From Acrocarpospora macrocephala (GTDB lineage: Bacteria; Actinomycetota; Actinomycetes; Streptosporangiales; Streptosporangiaceae): 64,000 nt of DNA. The stretch spans positions 1 through 64,000 of the forward strand of contig NZ_BLAE01000044.1 of the NCBI RefSeq assembly GCF_009687865.1, read 5' to 3'. A program made the position numbers and the translations under genes. The number at the start of each line of letters is the position of its first letter. Position 1 is the first letter of the stretch. This document shows, in pieces, positions 30,607 to 53,003 of this stretch. The notes under the pieces were generated by a model that saw nothing but the letters and a program-made list of their open reading frames with translations, was not told the DNA's origin and ran no database searches.

Positions 30607-30785
30607 TGGGGCTCCTCGCTGTGGAACATTGAGGACGGTAGAGCGTCCGGTCCCATATGACCAACACGTGCTTGCACAGCACTTGCATCGCCGGACGCAC
30701 CGATGCTGACGGGAGTCATCTGACCGCTACTCGGGGGAAACACGGGTGAAACAGGGCGGCGCTGTCATGAAGGGGACTCACTCCG
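30607..30785. other. Divergent spacer between lemA and the guanidine riboswitch
   Basis: 179 bases without a gene. It must hold the promoter for the riboswitch-led operon on the plus strand and the promoter for the LemA operon on the minus strand. No strong consensus hexamers could be picked out. Confidence 0.5.
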
Positions 30786-30902
30786 ATGGGTGGGGCGCAC
30801 CTAGGGTTCCGTTCTGGCCGGTGGGCTGGGGGCTGGTCCGAGAGGTGCAGGCGGGCGCCTGAGCGGCGGCCGTTCCACGGCGGGAGAAAAGCCCGGGAGA
30901 CA
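30786..30902 (+). promoter_or_regulatory. Guanidine-I riboswitch (ykkC-yxkD class) aptamer
   Basis: The three conserved blocks of the guanidine-I aptamer are present in the correct order and orientation: ACCTAGGGTTCCG (30799-30811), CTGGTCCGAGAG (30833-30844), and ACGGCGGGAGAAAAGCCCGG (30877-30896) followed by GAGA. The two last blocks are the strongly conserved P1/P1a flanking and loop elements of this class. The aptamer ends about 50 bases before the GTG start of the agmatinase-like gene. A small GCCTC/GAGGC hairpin (about 30915-30931) and the GAGGAG ribosome site (30941-30946) lie between. In known members guanidine binding turns on the downstream genes; whether control here is by termination or by access to the ribosome site is not clear. 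Confidence 0.92.
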
Positions 30903-30951
30903 GTCATTCCGGCTGCCTCTGTGTATGAGGCTTTCCCGATGAGGAGTGCCC

Positions 30952-32073
30952 GTGGGACACCTTCACCACAACTACGGACCCGAGGCGCGGAACGCGGTCG
31001 AGCGTGAGGCGATGCTGCCCACGACGATGCACGAGCGGGAGATCGCGCGCGGGCTCGAATACGGCCTGCCGGGGGCGGATTCCATTGTGGATCGCAGCAT
31101 CCCGACGTTCTCCCGGGGAGAGTTGCCGCATTTCGCGGGCATCAACACCTTCCTCAAAGCACCATATGTCGAAGATGTCAGGAAATGCGGCGAGTTCGAT
31201 GTAGCCATTCTGGGGGCGCCCTTCGATGGGGGCACCACCTATCGGTCGGGGACTCGTTTCGGACCGCAGGGGATTCGGAAGATATCCGCGTTGTACGGGC
31301 CGTACAGCTTCGAGCTGGGGGTTGACCTGCGGGAATCCATTACGATGTGTGATTTGGGGGATATTTTCACCATCCCCGCGAACATCGAGAAGACCTTCGA
31401 CCAGATCTCGAAGGGCGTCTCGCATGTGTACGGCTCGGGCGCGTTTCCCGTCATTCTCGGGGGCGACCACTCGATCGGCTACCCCACCGTGCGCGGCATC
31501 GCCGAACACCATTCCGGAAATATCGGAATCATCCATTTCGATCGGCATGTGGACACCCAGGAAACCGACCTGGACGAGCGCATGCACACCACGCCCTGGT
31601 TCCACGCCACCGATATCCCGAATGTCCCCGCCAAGAACCTCGTACAGATCGGGATCGGCGGCTGGCAGGCGCCCCGGCCGGGAGTGAAGGTCGGTCGCGA
31701 GCGCGGGACCACGATCATGACGGTGACCGACTGCGTGGAAATGGGGATCGATCGGGCGGCCGAGCGCGCGCTGGAGGTCGCCTGGGACGGCGCGGAGGCG
31801 GTGTGGCTGTCGTTCGACGTGGACTGCCTGGACGCCGCGTTCGTGCCGGGCACCGGCTGGCCCGAGCCGGGCGGGTTCCTGCCGCGTGAGGTGCTGAAGT
31901 TCATCCAGCTCATCGCGGACGCCCGGCCGCTGGCCGGGATCGAGGTGGTGGAGTGCTCCCCGCCGTACGACAACGCCGATATCACCTCTCTTATCGCCAC
32001 CCGCGTGATTTGCGACACCCTCGGGTGCTTGGTCCGCGCGGGCCACCTCCCCAAGAAGAAGGGAGCGGCGTGA
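30952..32073 (+). CDS. Agmatinase/ureohydrolase-family enzyme, probable guanidine hydrolase
   Basis: 373 residues from the GTG at 30952 (GAGGAG six bases upstream; an in-frame GTG at 30946 overlaps that site). The arginase fold is shown by the metal-ligand motifs GGDHSIG, HFDRHVDTQE and SFDVDCLD, by APFDGGTTYRSGTRFGPQGI near the N-terminus, and by the end IEVVECSPPYDNADITSLIA. The second motif has Arg where arginases have D-A-H-x-D. The enzyme sits under a guanidine-I riboswitch and in front of an ABC importer. The guanidine-hydrolysing members of this family (nickel enzymes that release urea and ammonia) are therefore a better guess than agmatinase. That assignment is from context. The stop overlaps the ATG of the binding-protein gene (TGATG). 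Confidence 0.85.
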   Translation: MGHLHHNYGPEARNAVEREAMLPTTMHEREIARGLEYGLPGADSIVDRSIPTFSRGELPHFAGINTFLKAPYVEDVRKCGEFDVAILGAPFDGGTTYRSGTRFGPQGIRKISALYGPYSFELGVDLRESITMCDLGDIFTIPANIEKTFDQISKGVSHVYGSGAFPVILGGDHSIGYPTVRGIAEHHSGNIGIIHFDRHVDTQETDLDERMHTTPWFHATDIPNVPAKNLVQIGIGGWQAPRPGVKVGRERGTTIMTVTDCVEMGIDRAAERALEVAWDGAEAVWLSFDVDCLDAAFVPGTGWPEPGGFLPREVLKFIQLIADARPLAGIEVVECSPPYDNADITSLIATRVICDTLGCLVRAGHLPKKKGAA

Positions 32074-33062
32074 TGTTCCGTCGCTTACTGCCCGCCCTGG
32101 CCGCCCTCGCCCTGTTCGGTACGGCATGCGCCAGCGAACCCGAAGCCACCCCCTCGGCCGCCCCGGCCGCCACGGAGAAGATCACCCTGGGCTTCAGCGC
32201 CTGGCCGGGCTGGTTCCCCTGGCAGGTGGCCGCCGAGCAGGGCCTGTTCGAGAAGAACGGCGTGCAGGTGGAGCTGAAGTATTTCGACAGCTACACCGAC
32301 TCGCTGAACGCGCTGGCCACGGGGACGATCGACGCCAACAGCCAGACCTTGAACGACACGCTGGCCTCGGTCGCGGGCGGCGCCAAGCAGAGCATCGTGC
32401 TGGTGAACGACAACTCCACCGGCAACGACCAGATCATCGCGGCGCCCGAGATCAAGACGCTGGCCGACCTCAAGGGGAAGACGGTCGCGGCCGAGCAGGG
32501 CACGGTCGATCATTACCTGCTGCTGCTCGCGTTGCGCAAGGCGGGGCTGACCGAGGCGGATGTGCAGTTCACCCCGATGCTGACCGACGCCGCGGCGGCC
32601 GCGTTCGTGGCGGGGCAGGTGGACGCGGTGGGCGCGTTCGCGCCGTTCACCTCGACCGCGCTGCAGCGGGAGGGCAGCAAGGCGATCGCCACCTCGGCGG
32701 ACTTCCCGGGCGCGATTCCCGATCATCTGGTGGTGACGAAGGATCTGCTGGGCCGGGACGAGAAGGCGGTGCAGGGCCTGGTCGCGACCTGGTTCGACAC
32801 GATCGAGTGGATCGCCGCGAACCGGCCGAAAGCGCTGGAGATCATGGCCAAGCGGGGCGGGGTGAGCGTGGCCGACTACGAGACGTACGACAAGGGGACG
32901 ACGATCTTCAGTTTGGAGCAGAACCGGGAGGCGTTCACGACCGACCTGCCCGCTCAGGCCAAGCTGATCTCCGACTTCCTGGTGTCGACCAAGCTGGTGG
33001 ACAGCGCGCCGCCGCTGGACGGCCTGTTCGAGCCCAAGTTCGTCCAGGCAGTCCAGCCGTGA
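32073..33062 (+). CDS. ABC importer substrate-binding lipoprotein, probably for guanidine
   Basis: 329 residues from the ATG at 32073. There is a lipoprotein signal peptide (MFRRLLPALAALALFGTAC, lipid Cys followed by ASEPE). The body is of the SsuA/TauA/NrtA (NMT1-like) periplasmic-binding type: KITLGFSAWPGWFPWQVAAE, GLFEKNGVQVELKYFDSYTD, ALATGTIDANSQTLND, ADLKGKTVAAEQGTVDHYLL. Proteins of this type are often mis-annotated as nitrate, sulfonate or taurine binders when they sit under guanidine riboswitches. It is translationally coupled to the enzyme upstream. The ligand is inferred. Confidence 0.85.
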   Translation: MFRRLLPALAALALFGTACASEPEATPSAAPAATEKITLGFSAWPGWFPWQVAAEQGLFEKNGVQVELKYFDSYTDSLNALATGTIDANSQTLNDTLASVAGGAKQSIVLVNDNSTGNDQIIAAPEIKTLADLKGKTVAAEQGTVDHYLLLLALRKAGLTEADVQFTPMLTDAAAAAFVAGQVDAVGAFAPFTSTALQREGSKAIATSADFPGAIPDHLVVTKDLLGRDEKAVQGLVATWFDTIEWIAANRPKALEIMAKRGGVSVADYETYDKGTTIFSLEQNREAFTTDLPAQAKLISDFLVSTKLVDSAPPLDGLFEPKFVQAVQP

Positions 33063-33111
33063 CCGGGATCCGCCCGCCCGACATTTCCCGAAATTTCGTC
33101 AGGCGTTCGGG

Positions 33112-33936
33112 ATGGTGAGCGTGCGGTCGGCTCCGCCGGAAATACGGGCGACGCCACGGCGGGTCAAGCTGCTCAAGACCGACGTGTCGCGCCGGACCGC
33201 GTGGATCCTGCGGGCGGCCTCGATTCTGGTGCCGCTCGCGGGCTGGTGGGCGCTGAGCGTGAGCGGCCTGGTCGAGGACACGTTCCTGCCGTCCCCGCCC
33301 GACGTGTGGGCGGCGGGCCTGACCATGGTCGAGAGCGGCGATCTGCCCGCCGACCTGCTGGCCAGCCTGGGCCGGATCGGCGCGGGCTTCGGCGCGGCCG
33401 TGCTGATCGCGGTGCCGCTCGGGTTCGCGATGGGCACGCTGGGGTGGGCGCAGCCGCTGCTGGAGCCGGTGATCGGCATCCTGCGCTACCTGCCCGCCTC
33501 GGCGTTCATCCCGCTGCTGATCATCTGGCTCGGCATCGGCGAGACCTCGAAGATCGCCCTGCTCGTGCTCGGGGTGGTCTTCTTCAACACGCTGATGACC
33601 GCCGACGTGGTCCGCCAGGTGCCGGCCCGGTTGCTGGAGGTCTCGGCCATCCTCGGCGCCGGCCGGGCCCGGGTGGCCGCGCGGGTCGTCTTCCCGTACG
33701 CGCTGCCGGGCATTCTGGACGCGATGCGGGTCAACGCGGCGGCGGCCTGGAACTTCGTGGTCGTGGCCGAACTGATCGCGGCGACGTCCGGGCTCGGCTA
33801 CCGGATCACCCGGGCGCAGCGATTCCTGCAGACCGATCGTATTTTCGCCATCCTCATCGTGATCGGGCTGATCGGCCTGACCATCGACATCACGCTCCGG
33901 CTCGTCCGGGCCCGCGTCGGACGGTGGGCGCAATGA
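33112..33936 (+). CDS. ABC importer permease (SsuC/TauC type)
   Basis: 274 residues. The BinDing-protein-dependent transport fold has about six membrane helices (first about residues 34-52, AASILVPLAGWWALSVSG). The EAA-loop equivalent is at about 178-200 (EVSAILGAGRARVAARVVFP with YALPGILDAMR following). The segment FLPSPPDVWAAG ahead of the core is typical of the nitrate/sulfonate/guanidine-type permeases. A 49-base gap follows the binding protein; the end overlaps the ATPase start by ATGA. Confidence 0.87.
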   Translation: MVSVRSAPPEIRATPRRVKLLKTDVSRRTAWILRAASILVPLAGWWALSVSGLVEDTFLPSPPDVWAAGLTMVESGDLPADLLASLGRIGAGFGAAVLIAVPLGFAMGTLGWAQPLLEPVIGILRYLPASAFIPLLIIWLGIGETSKIALLVLGVVFFNTLMTADVVRQVPARLLEVSAILGAGRARVAARVVFPYALPGILDAMRVNAAAAWNFVVVAELIAATSGLGYRITRAQRFLQTDRIFAILIVIGLIGLTIDITLRLVRARVGRWAQ

Positions 33937-34724
33937 GCAATGGTCTGCAACTGGTCGATGTGAGCCGGGAGTACGTCGCCGGGATCCCGGTGCTTTCGGG
34001 CATCGACCTGGCCATCGAGCCAGGCGAGTTGGTCACCGTCGTCGGCGCCAGCGGGTCGGGAAAGTCCACGCTGCTCTGCCTGATCGCCGGCCTGGCGCGC
34101 CCGACGACCGGGCAGGTGCTGCTGGACGGCCAGGAAGTGCTGGGCCCCGGACCGGATCGTGGCATGGCCTTCCAGACGGCCTCGCTCTACCCGTGGCGGA
34201 GCGTCGCCCGCAATGTCGCCTTCGGCCTGGAGGCGCTGGGCGTGCCCCGGGCCGAGCGGGACGAGCGGGTGCGGTGGCTGCTGGACGAGGTCGGCCTGAC
34301 CGCGTTCGCCGGGACGTTGCCGGGCAAGCTGTCCGGCGGCCAGCAGCAGCGGGTGTCGATCGCCAGGGCGCTGGCCTGCCAGCCGAGGGTGCTCCTGCTC
34401 GACGAACCCTTCGGCGCACTCGACGTCCAGACGAAAGAAGATATGCAGCTGTTCATCCGGCAGATCTGGCAGGACGTCGGCACCACGATCGTCATGGTCA
34501 CCCACGACGTCGAGGAGGCCGTCTTCCTCGGCCAGCGGGTGCTCGTGCTGTCCAGCGACCCCGGCCGGATCAGCCAGGACATCCCGGTCGACCTCCCCGA
34601 ACCCCGCACCCTGGAGGTACGGCGAAGCGCCGAGTTCCTGTCCCTGCGGGCCCGCGTGGAGGACCTGGTCCGGGCCGAGCATCGGGCACACCAGGCCCTC
34701 AAGAGGCATGCCGGTTCGTCATAG
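33933..34724 (+). CDS. ABC importer ATP-binding protein (SsuB/TauB type)
   Basis: 263 residues. Walker A GASGSGKSTLL (about 38-48), Q-loop AFQTASLYPW (the SsuB/TauB-like Q-x-x-x-L-x-P-W form), ABC signature LSGGQQQRVSIARAL, Walker B VLLLDEPFGALD and switch His in VTHDVEEAVFLG are all intact. The start ATG overlaps the permease stop. It is the last gene of the guanidine operon, giving the order enzyme, binding protein, permease, ATPase. Confidence 0.9.
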   Translation: MSNGLQLVDVSREYVAGIPVLSGIDLAIEPGELVTVVGASGSGKSTLLCLIAGLARPTTGQVLLDGQEVLGPGPDRGMAFQTASLYPWRSVARNVAFGLEALGVPRAERDERVRWLLDEVGLTAFAGTLPGKLSGGQQQRVSIARALACQPRVLLLDEPFGALDVQTKEDMQLFIRQIWQDVGTTIVMVTHDVEEAVFLGQRVLVLSSDPGRISQDIPVDLPEPRTLEVRRSAEFLSLRARVEDLVRAEHRAHQALKRHAGSS

Positions 34725-34784: not shown

Positions 34785-35213
34785 ATGGCGACCACGCGTA
34801 CCGCGACGACCCAGTGGAAGGGCGCGCTTCTCGACGGCTCCGGCACGGTATCGCTCGACACCTCGGGGGTCGGCACCTTCGATGTGACGTGGGCCTCCCG
34901 CTCCCAGGAGGCGAACGGCAAGACCAGCCCAGAGGAGCTGATCGCGGCTGCGCACTCCTCCTGCTTCTCGATGGCGCTGTCGCACGGGCTGGCTCAGGCG
35001 GGGACCCCGCCGCAGTCGGTCGAGACCAAGGCGGACGTGACGTTCCAGCCGGGTGAGGGCATCACCGGCATCGTCATCTCCGTCCGGGCACACGTCCCCG
35101 GCATCACCGCCGAGGACTTCCAGGCCGCCGCCGAAACGGCGAAGGCCAACTGCCCGGTCAGCAAGGCCCTCGCCGGAACCACGATCAGCCTTAACGCCGA
35201 ATTGCTCAGCTAG
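34785..35213 (+). CDS. OsmC-family peroxiredoxin
   Basis: 142 residues from the ATG at 34785, which has AAAGGG about 10 bases upstream; an upstream in-frame extension to 34752 lacks support. The OsmC pattern is complete: NGKTSPEELIAAAHSSCFSM with the first redox Cys and ANCPVSKALAG with the second, plus the central helix and beta-sheet segments. OsmC enzymes reduce organic hydroperoxides with two catalytic cysteines in the cytoplasm. It follows the ABC ATPase by 60 bases; it may be co-transcribed but has no evident link to guanidine. A strong terminator follows. Confidence 0.87.
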   Translation: MATTRTATTQWKGALLDGSGTVSLDTSGVGTFDVTWASRSQEANGKTSPEELIAAAHSSCFSMALSHGLAQAGTPPQSVETKADVTFQPGEGITGIVISVRAHVPGITAEDFQAAAETAKANCPVSKALAGTTISLNAELLS

Positions 35214-51623: not shown

Positions 51624-53003
51624 TCACTGAGTTGCATTTCCCAGTGATCCGTCCATTACTGGGCGGAGGTCCCCGTCTGACCCGGACGGTGCCCGGTGCG
51701 GGGTAGACGTTTCACAGCCACCAGCCCCGGCAGGCGGGGTCTTATGGTCGGCTCCACATCCGTTTATCGTCTCCGGGCCACTCCCGGCGACGGTCTGCTT
51801 CACCAGGGAAGCCAGATTGAGCGCAGCGTTCACGTCCCGGTCCAAGACCAAGCCGCAATCCGCGCAGGTGAAGGTGCGCTCGGAGAGGGCGAGTTTGACT
51901 TTCACCGCGCCGCACCCGGAACACGTCTTGCTGGAGGCGAACCAGCGGCCGGCCACCATCAACCGACCGCCGCCCCATTCGGTCTTATAGGCGAGTTGGC
52001 GGCGGATCTCGGCGAACCCGGAGTCGGAGATCGCGCGGGCCAGCCGCCGGTTCTTCACCATCCCGGCGATGTGGAGATCTTCGACCACCAGCGTGCCGTA
52101 CTCGCCCGCCAGCGTCGTGGTGAGCTTGTGAATGGCATCGCGGCGCAGCGCGGCCACCCGGTAGTGGACCCGGTTACGGGCGGCGTCGGCTTGACGCCAC
52201 CGGCCGGACGGTTGCTGCCCGCTGCGCCGGTCCGGGCCCTGCTTGCGGGAGACCGCCCGGGACAGACGGCGGAGCTTTCGGGCTGCAGCGGCCAGGTGCC
52301 GGGGGTTGGCGGCGGCGGGGCGGCCGTCGGAGTAGACGGCGAGGGTCTTGACGCCCAAGTCCACCCCGACCACCGTCTCCGGCCGTGAGGGCGCCCTGGC
52401 CGCGCGTTCGATCTGGACGGAGAACGAAACGAGCCATCGCCCGGCTTCGAGCCGGACGGTTGCCGAGCGGATCCGCGCGGTGCCCGCCTCGATCCGGCGG
52501 GCCAGCTTGCGGGTGGACTCGTGGGTTTTCATACGCCCGAGTACCGGCAGCACCACGTGGGTGCGGCCGTCCAGGCGGATCGTTCCGGTGGTGAACCGTA
52601 CCGACATGGCCTTCTTGCGTTTGGTCCGGAATCGGGGAAAGCCGACCTTCGGGCCTTTACGGGTGCCTTTCCTGGACTCGCTCCAGTTCGTCAGCGCGGT
52701 GGCGAGCCGCTCCAGGCCGCAGGCGTAGGCCTCTTTGGAGTTCTCCGCCCACCACGGCGCCACCTCCTGCTTGGCCCCGTTCCAGGCTTTACGCAGCGAA
52801 TACATCGACCACGACAGGGACGGGGTCAGCTGGGCGTCCGGGATGCCGTAGGAACGTTCGGCCTCCCGCTGGCCCAGGTTGGCTTTAACCCGGGCTAGGC
52901 CCCAGTTGAAGGCCAGGCGGGCGGCGCCGCAATGGGAACGGAGCATGCGTTCCTGGCGCGGGGTGGGGTCGAGCGCGTACCGGTAGGCGTGGACGACCTG
53001 CAT
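51624..53003 (-). mobile_element. tnpB: IS200/IS605-type TnpB (RNA-guided nuclease / OrfB), no TnpA
   Basis: 459 residues from the ATG at 53003 with GGAGG six bases upstream. The N-terminal helix-turn-helix/OrfB region is MQVVHAYRYALDPTPRQERM. The RuvC catalytic residues are intact: Asp in VVGVDLGVKTLAVYS, Glu in LVVEDLHIAGM and Asp in DRDVNAALNL. A zinc ribbon (CSGCG and CADCG) is present. TnpB proteins are guided by an omega RNA made from the 3' end of the element; the low-complexity C-terminal codons (about 51624-51800) are the expected source. There is no TnpA transposase gene beside it, so it is a solitary or non-autonomous copy. It splits the heme cluster. Confidence 0.9.

Follow-up and report, generated by a model that had tools for sequence, protein, structure and literature searches.

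A putative guanidine-responsive guanidinase and ABC importer operon in Acrocarpospora macrocephala and related actinobacteria

Results

We analyzed a 64,000-nucleotide (nt) stretch of the Acrocarpospora macrocephala genome (contig NZ_BLAE01000044.1, positions 1 to 64,000; hereafter the window), in which a predicted guanidine riboswitch precedes four genes that very probably form a guanidine-inducible operon for the uptake and hydrolysis of guanidine in nitrogen acquisition. On the plus strand, a guanidine-I (ykkC subtype 1) riboswitch aptamer (30790-30901), matched by the full Rfam model RF00442 (model positions 1-107), is followed by a presumed expression platform (30902-30951) and then by genes for a predicted GdmH-type guanidinase of the arginase family (gdmH, 30952-32073), the substrate-binding protein of an ATP-binding cassette (ABC) importer with the SsuA/TauA fold (32073-33062; TIGR01728, 218 bits against a cut-off of 163.5), a permease (33112-33936; PF00528, 88.3 bits) and an ATPase of the NrtD/SsuB/TauB type (33933-34724; PF00005, 116.3 bits). 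The gdmH reading frame is open from a GTG at 30946, and a second GTG at 30952 is the better start because it lies 5 nt from the Shine-Dalgarno sequence GAGGAG (30941-30946) and because the gdmH matches in relatives (loci L006 and L011-L013 of the survey described below) begin at the corresponding residue. The initial annotation of this locus had the genes coupled by overlaps. This holds for gdmH and the binding-protein gene, which share 1 nt (TGA 32071-32073, ATG 32073), and for the permease and ATPase genes, which share 4 nt (ATGA 33933-33936), but not for the binding-protein and permease genes, which are separated by 49 nt (stop at 33062, ATG at 33112).

The aptamer was identified by one full-length match to RF00442 that scores 63.6 bits against a gathering score of 63, placing it within the family (E = 9.2e-10 in 10 kb, 5.9e-9 in the whole window). 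All three conserved guanidine-I blocks that the initial annotation had seen ahead of the enzyme gene (CUAGGGUUCCG, CUGGUCCGAGAG and CACGG...GGGA-AAAAGCCCGGGAGA) lie within this match, and the Rfam search that it had suggested is thereby significant. In the 12.1 Mb genome this was the sole guanidine-I match found at E <= 1, with 150 of 401 first-look candidates scored, and a permissive Rfam scan of 30700-31000 returned four further matches (E values of 3.8 to 5.8), far below their own cut-offs. Given the marginal score, the leader might instead be a ykkC subtype 2 aptamer, responding to guanosine tetraphosphate (ppGpp) or phosphoribosyl pyrophosphate (PRPP) and not to guanidine. We regard this as extremely improbable: the CUGGUCCGAGAG block fits the consensus fully, near relatives reach 89.7 bits on the guanidine-I model, and the neighboring genes are guanidine-related. 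Guanidine aptamers are reported to carry an adenosine (A46) where subtypes 2a and 2b carry a pyrimidine (PMC6031431), and every A of the CUGGUCCGAGAG block is an A in the window, with A46 itself not mapped to a column.

All of the sequence tests applied identify the enzyme as a guanidinase. A phmmer search of the PDB returned 9FEK, the guanidinase of Nitrospira inopinata, at 727.5 bits and 7ESR, the GdmH of Synechocystis, at 578.5 bits (source organisms as given in PMC11410670), with a proclavaminate amidinohydrolase third at 187.1 bits; the window enzyme is 83% identical to the first and 68% identical to the second. Assignment as a guanidinase requires Thr105, His222 and Trp313 in N. inopinata numbering, and Glu344 and six metal ligands are also named (PMC11410670). 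The window enzyme has T98, H214, W305 and E336 (numbered from GTG 30946) at these positions, together with the six His/Asp ligands of a binuclear metal site (H175, D199, H201, D203, D291 and D293). This full signature and the Arg of the D-R-H-V-D motif (R200) are present in 95 of 99 alignment rows, the four deviating rows being two paralogues from the same genome and two distant actinobacterial sequences with T in place of W. A tree built by a quick method, in which 20 of 93 inner branches are starred and 34 are open and the two in-genome paralogues are the sole other ureohydrolases, places the window enzyme with Acrocarpospora and Herbidospora sequences in a starred 86-row branch that contains both 9FEK and 7ESR. 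The nearest named record is that of A. corrugata (98%), and all four further genomes of this genus covered by the family survey encode the enzyme (94-99%).

Automatic annotation would describe an agmatinase or guanidinobutyrase-like ureohydrolase with an importer for sulfonate, taurine or nitrate, and such a description is in keeping with the arginase superfamily match (PF00491), the sub-threshold matches to agmatinase models and the SsuA, TauA and NrtD families that are the importer's best matches. However, the enzyme misses both agmatinase cut-offs (TIGR01230, 161.5 against 174.3; PRK02190, 208.6 against 302), is close in sequence to a guanidinase with a solved structure, carries W305, T98 and R200 where its own paralogues have T, S and A, and is encoded directly after a guanidine-I RNA, which together make an agmatinase highly unlikely. 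The initial annotation of the enzyme as a guanidine hydrolase type is therefore favored, given that it branches with characterized guanidinases and scores below the agmatinase models. The D-R-H-V-D motif to which that annotation drew attention is indeed present, but it is a mark of known guanidinases and not a distinctive feature, since both characterized enzymes have it. The two paralogous ureohydrolases (L002 and L003, on contigs C70 and C71; 37% and 34% identity) carry D-A-H and lack the guanidinase Trp and Thr.

The binding protein, by passing TIGR01728 in company with a binding-protein-dependent permease and an ABC ATPase, identifies the transporter as a predicted member of the SsuA family of importers. 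The best NCBIfam models for the ATPase are TauB, SaoA and NtrCD, all below their own cut-offs, and when the structure of the binding protein was modeled from 30 sequences (predicted local distance difference test score 87.9, predicted template modeling score 0.82), TauA/SsuA were the top structural matches. Since none of 198 actinobacterial genomes had a match at E <= 1e-60 to TIGR03427, which describes the binding protein of urea carboxylase systems, we used plasmid records for comparison. Homologues of the binding protein occurred at E <= 1e-20 in 186 such records, of which five were examined, and in three of these (Cupriavidus, Burkholderia and Paenibacillus) a guanidine-I RNA stands just before the homologue. 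The Cupriavidus basilensis plasmid (L110) has, in order, a guanidine-I RNA, a binding protein 40.8% identical to that of the window, a permease, an ATPase, UAAP1, UAAP2, a gene annotated as "urea carboxylase" and a guanidine-II RNA. In Burkholderia stagnalis, one guanidine-I RNA precedes a lone binding protein and another precedes the adjacent UAAP/carboxylase genes, while the Paenibacillus record, which is unannotated, has the RNA before the binding-protein homologue. The "urea carboxylases" of such loci can be guanidine carboxylases (PMC12186494), and a homologue under a guanidine-I RNA beside such a gene lends contextual support, with another partner enzyme, to the initial suggestion that the importer may be dedicated to this operon's substrate. 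A Rhodobacteraceae plasmid has the order guanidine-I RNA, ABC importer of the same kind, gdmH. Binding proteins found in a guanidine context share D-x-S-x-G-N-D at 113-119 (with one N to G change, in Paenibacillus); the motif is altered in SsuA and in the context-free Rhizobium homologue, yet it is kept in a Chondrocystis homologue for which no guanidine context was seen, and its conservation is only a hint as to substrate. D146 of the binding protein is not conserved throughout.

To place the operon among its relatives, we surveyed the best 80 of at least 566 relatives of the gdmH query. At 30 of these loci, gdmH has three ABC genes homologous to those of the window behind it on its own strand; these 30 come from Streptosporangiaceae, Micromonosporaceae, Lentzea, one Pseudonocardia, Pseudofrankia and one unplaced metagenome-assembled genome (MAG). 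The remaining arrangements include ABC genes upstream of gdmH (3/80) or on the opposite strand (1/80), an amino-acid-type permease after gdmH (7/80), another permease from those Pfam families with urease genes after it (3/80), and an APC-type permease before gdmH (15/80; Nitrospira records, one titled Nitrosospira). At 21 loci, several of them at contig ends, these queries detected no neighboring transporter on the gdmH strand, although four of the 21 show weak similarity to a permease on the opposite strand at a distance of 2.6-2.8 kb. In 25 of the 30 ABC loci, an Rfam guanidine-I match lies ahead of the gdmH match and ends 44-146 nt from it, in 20 cases over the gathering score. Scans of the whole genomes of 50 among the 80 loci gave a guanidine-I match somewhere in 41, over the cut-off in 35. 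This suggests that the guanidinase often retains the switch while the transporter is swapped. With the A. macrocephala genome included in both counts, gdmH occurs in 14 of 396 genomes of the phylum (E <= 1e-120) and in 30 of 200 genomes of the family (E <= 1e-180).

The sequence between aptamer and start codon holds the Shine-Dalgarno sequence and lacks the T run of an intrinsic terminator; a terminator scan of this leader found no terminator-like site. Among 39 leaders, none has a run of five T between aptamer and start codon and two have at least five T within 8 nt. This scarcity argues against a canonical terminator, without demonstrating translational control; a review describes guanidine-I as transcriptional (PMC12186494). 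Forcing the P3 helix of the aptamer raised Shine-Dalgarno accessibility by more than 0.1 in 6 of 38 leaders and lowered it in 2, with a change from 0.39 to 0.45 in the window, which does not clearly support release of the Shine-Dalgarno sequence. An "anti-aptamer" strand (GGCTTTTCCCC against GGGGAAAAGCC) that appeared striking in Herbidospora and in the window reached p <= 0.05 against shuffles in 3 of 38 leaders, all from Herbidospora (window p 0.095), and we do not claim it. In both tests, start codons were chosen by rule and L034 was omitted for its implausible start.

Urease is encoded on contig C4 of the same genome (the window being contig C44), where, from a reading of the translations, it neighbors UreG and a urea-type ABC transporter. 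Urease alpha occurs in 130 of the 200 genomes in the family survey, and in 129 of them its match is over the cut-off. It is present in 30 of 30 genomes with gdmH and in 100 of the 170 that lack it (Fisher p 6e-7) or, tallied by genus, in 14 of 14 against 31 of 54 (p 0.001); the genomes are related, so that these p values are overstated, and in candidate-rich genomes only part of the candidates was scored for gdmH, urease alpha and HypB. In the genomes of the 30 ABC-operon loci, urease likewise exceeded the cut-off in all 30. No nickel chaperone gene adjoins the window operon, as the initial annotation had stated: a single HypA match on contig C8 and sub-cut-off matches to the HypB model on contigs C4 and C18 all lie elsewhere. 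With HypA on another contig and no HypB over the cut-off in the genome, the operon differs from the HypAB-served, cyanobacterial type. HypB was found in 26 of the 200 family genomes, one of the 30 with gdmH (G477) and 25 of the 170 without, and because it is rare in the whole family its lack is not special to guanidinase genomes. Across 31 genomes (those of the 30 ABC-operon loci and A. macrocephala), HypB exceeded the cut-off in four. HypA was present in 17 of 31 genomes tested and is therefore not diagnostic alone; the HypA and HypB sets differ, the former including L022 and L036 and leaving out L037 and L052.

Discussion

We interpret these genes as a guanidine uptake and hydrolysis operon because a guanidine-I RNA precedes them, because the enzyme has the guanidinase signature and branches with guanidinases, and because a homologue of the importer occurs in a guanidine context elsewhere. 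In the proposed mechanism, guanidine would bind the leader RNA and turn the operon on, and guanidinium would enter through the importer formed by the SsuA-type binding protein, permease and ATPase. It would then be cleaved to urea and ammonium by the binuclear metal hydrolase of the GdmH type (probably Ni/Mn), and the urease encoded elsewhere in the genome would convert urea to ammonia and CO2. This interpretation draws on the homology of each component, the signature residues, the position of the enzyme in the tree, the conserved gene order and the co-occurrence with urease, from which we infer the substrate of the enzyme and of the importer, the ON direction of the switch and nickel as the metal. 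Given that guanidine riboswitches also govern exporters and detoxification (PMC12186494), the operon could mainly detoxify guanidine made in the cell, with the importer serving another substrate or recapture. That an importer and not an exporter adjoins the enzyme in 30 of 80 loci, and that urease is present in every one of the 30 enzyme-bearing genomes sampled from the family, renders this unlikely.

Several observations count against a guanidine uptake and hydrolysis operon. The aptamer score barely exceeds its threshold (63.6 against 63 bits), and the riboswitch is not recognized in 5 of the 30 ABC loci (three Lentzea, one Pseudonocardia and one MAG), which have no conserved block, no match in the genome under stricter filters and no Rfam family at gathering thresholds in the locus; the guanidine-I RNA is therefore not obligatory. 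A guanidine-binding description appears in 0 of the best 50 of 1709 structure matches to the binding protein, the nearest of which bind sulfonates, and a guanidine-I RNA or guanidine context was not seen at the Chondrocystis and Rhizobium homologues (two of the five plasmid records). The branch leading to the Synechocystis enzyme carries a flag for its length in the tree. Finally, the N. inopinata enzyme has a high Km of 13.6 mM, and its authors considered another substrate (PMC11410670).

The individual elements of the operon have precedents. Synechocystis PCC 6803 sll1077-sll1082, which encodes GdmH, HypA, HypB and an SsuA-type ABC importer under a guanidine-I RNA, has the same riboswitch class, importer kind and enzyme family as the window, and its enzyme has been published as a guanidinase (PMC8390497, PMC12186494); picocyanobacteria are reported to have a similar operon (PMC10119275). 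The hypA and hypB genes set the cyanobacterial operon apart from that of the window. The N. inopinata operon (PMC11410670; 9FEK), which encodes the closest characterized enzyme, resembles the window in having a guanidine-I RNA and, as described there, no nickel chaperone genes nearby; its importer, however, is an APC permease encoded before the enzyme, whereas the window has an ABC importer encoded after it. The C. basilensis plasmid shares the guanidine-I RNA and a homologous ABC importer with the window but would degrade guanidine by the carboxylase route and not by the hydrolase. Wang et al. (2021) described such enzymes in many microbes under guanidine riboswitches, often in operons with hypA, hypB and SsuA/TM_PBP2/NrtD-type genes, "in a wide range of microorganisms" (PMC8390497). 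The novelty implied by the initial annotation is weakened, as D-R-H-V-D, the lack of nickel chaperones (in comammox) and riboswitch-enzyme-importer operons have all been described, and the window operon is best seen as a well-supported actinobacterial member of a known operon kind, without hypAB. The new elements are the survey counts, with the three ABC genes after gdmH at 30 of the 80 nearest loci and the riboswitch also present at 25 of these, and the urease and HypB tallies for the family. We found no literature on guanidinases or guanidine riboswitches specific to actinobacteria; supplementary tables lay outside the scope of this search, and absence from print is not claimed. The guanidinase pathway, characterized in a cyanobacterium and a nitrifier in the literature covered, would extend to a conserved operon of soil actinomycetes, where an annotation of "agmatinase plus sulfonate/nitrate transporter" should probably read guanidinase and guanidine importer.

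How these guanidinases would obtain nickel is a further consideration. One possibility, which we rate as doubtful, is that UreG and its partners in urease maturation supply these actinobacterial enzymes with nickel, without HypAB; if true, two successive nickel enzymes of one nitrogen pathway would share one loading system. Consistent with such sharing, all 30 guanidinase genomes have urease and 29 of them lack HypB, and gdmH, a permease and urease stand in a row in some relatives (L042, L057, L062 and the Rubrobacter locus L107). The rarity of HypB in the family, where it occurs in only 25 of 170 genomes without guanidinase, weakens this reading. Alternatively, the guanidinase may use no chaperone whatsoever, and the comammox enzyme likewise has no known dedicated nickel loader according to the account in PMC11410670, or urease may be kept merely since urea must be used, a need that explains the urease tie so that no further cause is required. 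The tie to urease, combined with the lack of HypB, makes nickel supply to guanidinases testable in culturable strains.

Other gene arrangements were encountered in the survey. Three actinobacterial MAGs (L042:7866-14137, L057:3414-9366 and L062:7986-14224) have an amino-acid-type permease and then urease genes behind the riboswitch and gdmH, an order that would take guanidine to ammonia within a single gene row; UreC was identified there by tblastn and the other urease genes by reading. A Rubrobacter indicoceani plasmid (L107:4735-11077) carries a guanidine-I RNA, a guanidinase-like gene, a sodium:solute symporter, a formamidase on the other strand and urease, the symporter being a third transporter type in the same slot. 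The Lentzea loci L025, L033 and L041 keep the enzyme and the ABC importer with no guanidine-I RNA or other Rfam family found, and their regulation may differ. A second guanidine-I match, weak in some cases, lies elsewhere in the genomes of L005, L014, L017, L021, L022, L035, L040, L048 and L072. At locus L048, two additional arginase-family frames lie at -4533 on the minus strand and at -3249 on the plus strand relative to gdmH, and a guanidine-I block is present near -3.4 kb. Within the window, an Rfam RF03015 Transposase-2 RNA scores marginally over its gathering score at 51644-51713 on the minus strand, and a gene for an OsmC-type peroxiredoxin (34785-35213) lies downstream of the ATPase gene; the latter adjoins the operon in 11 of the 80 loci, all from Streptosporangiaceae.

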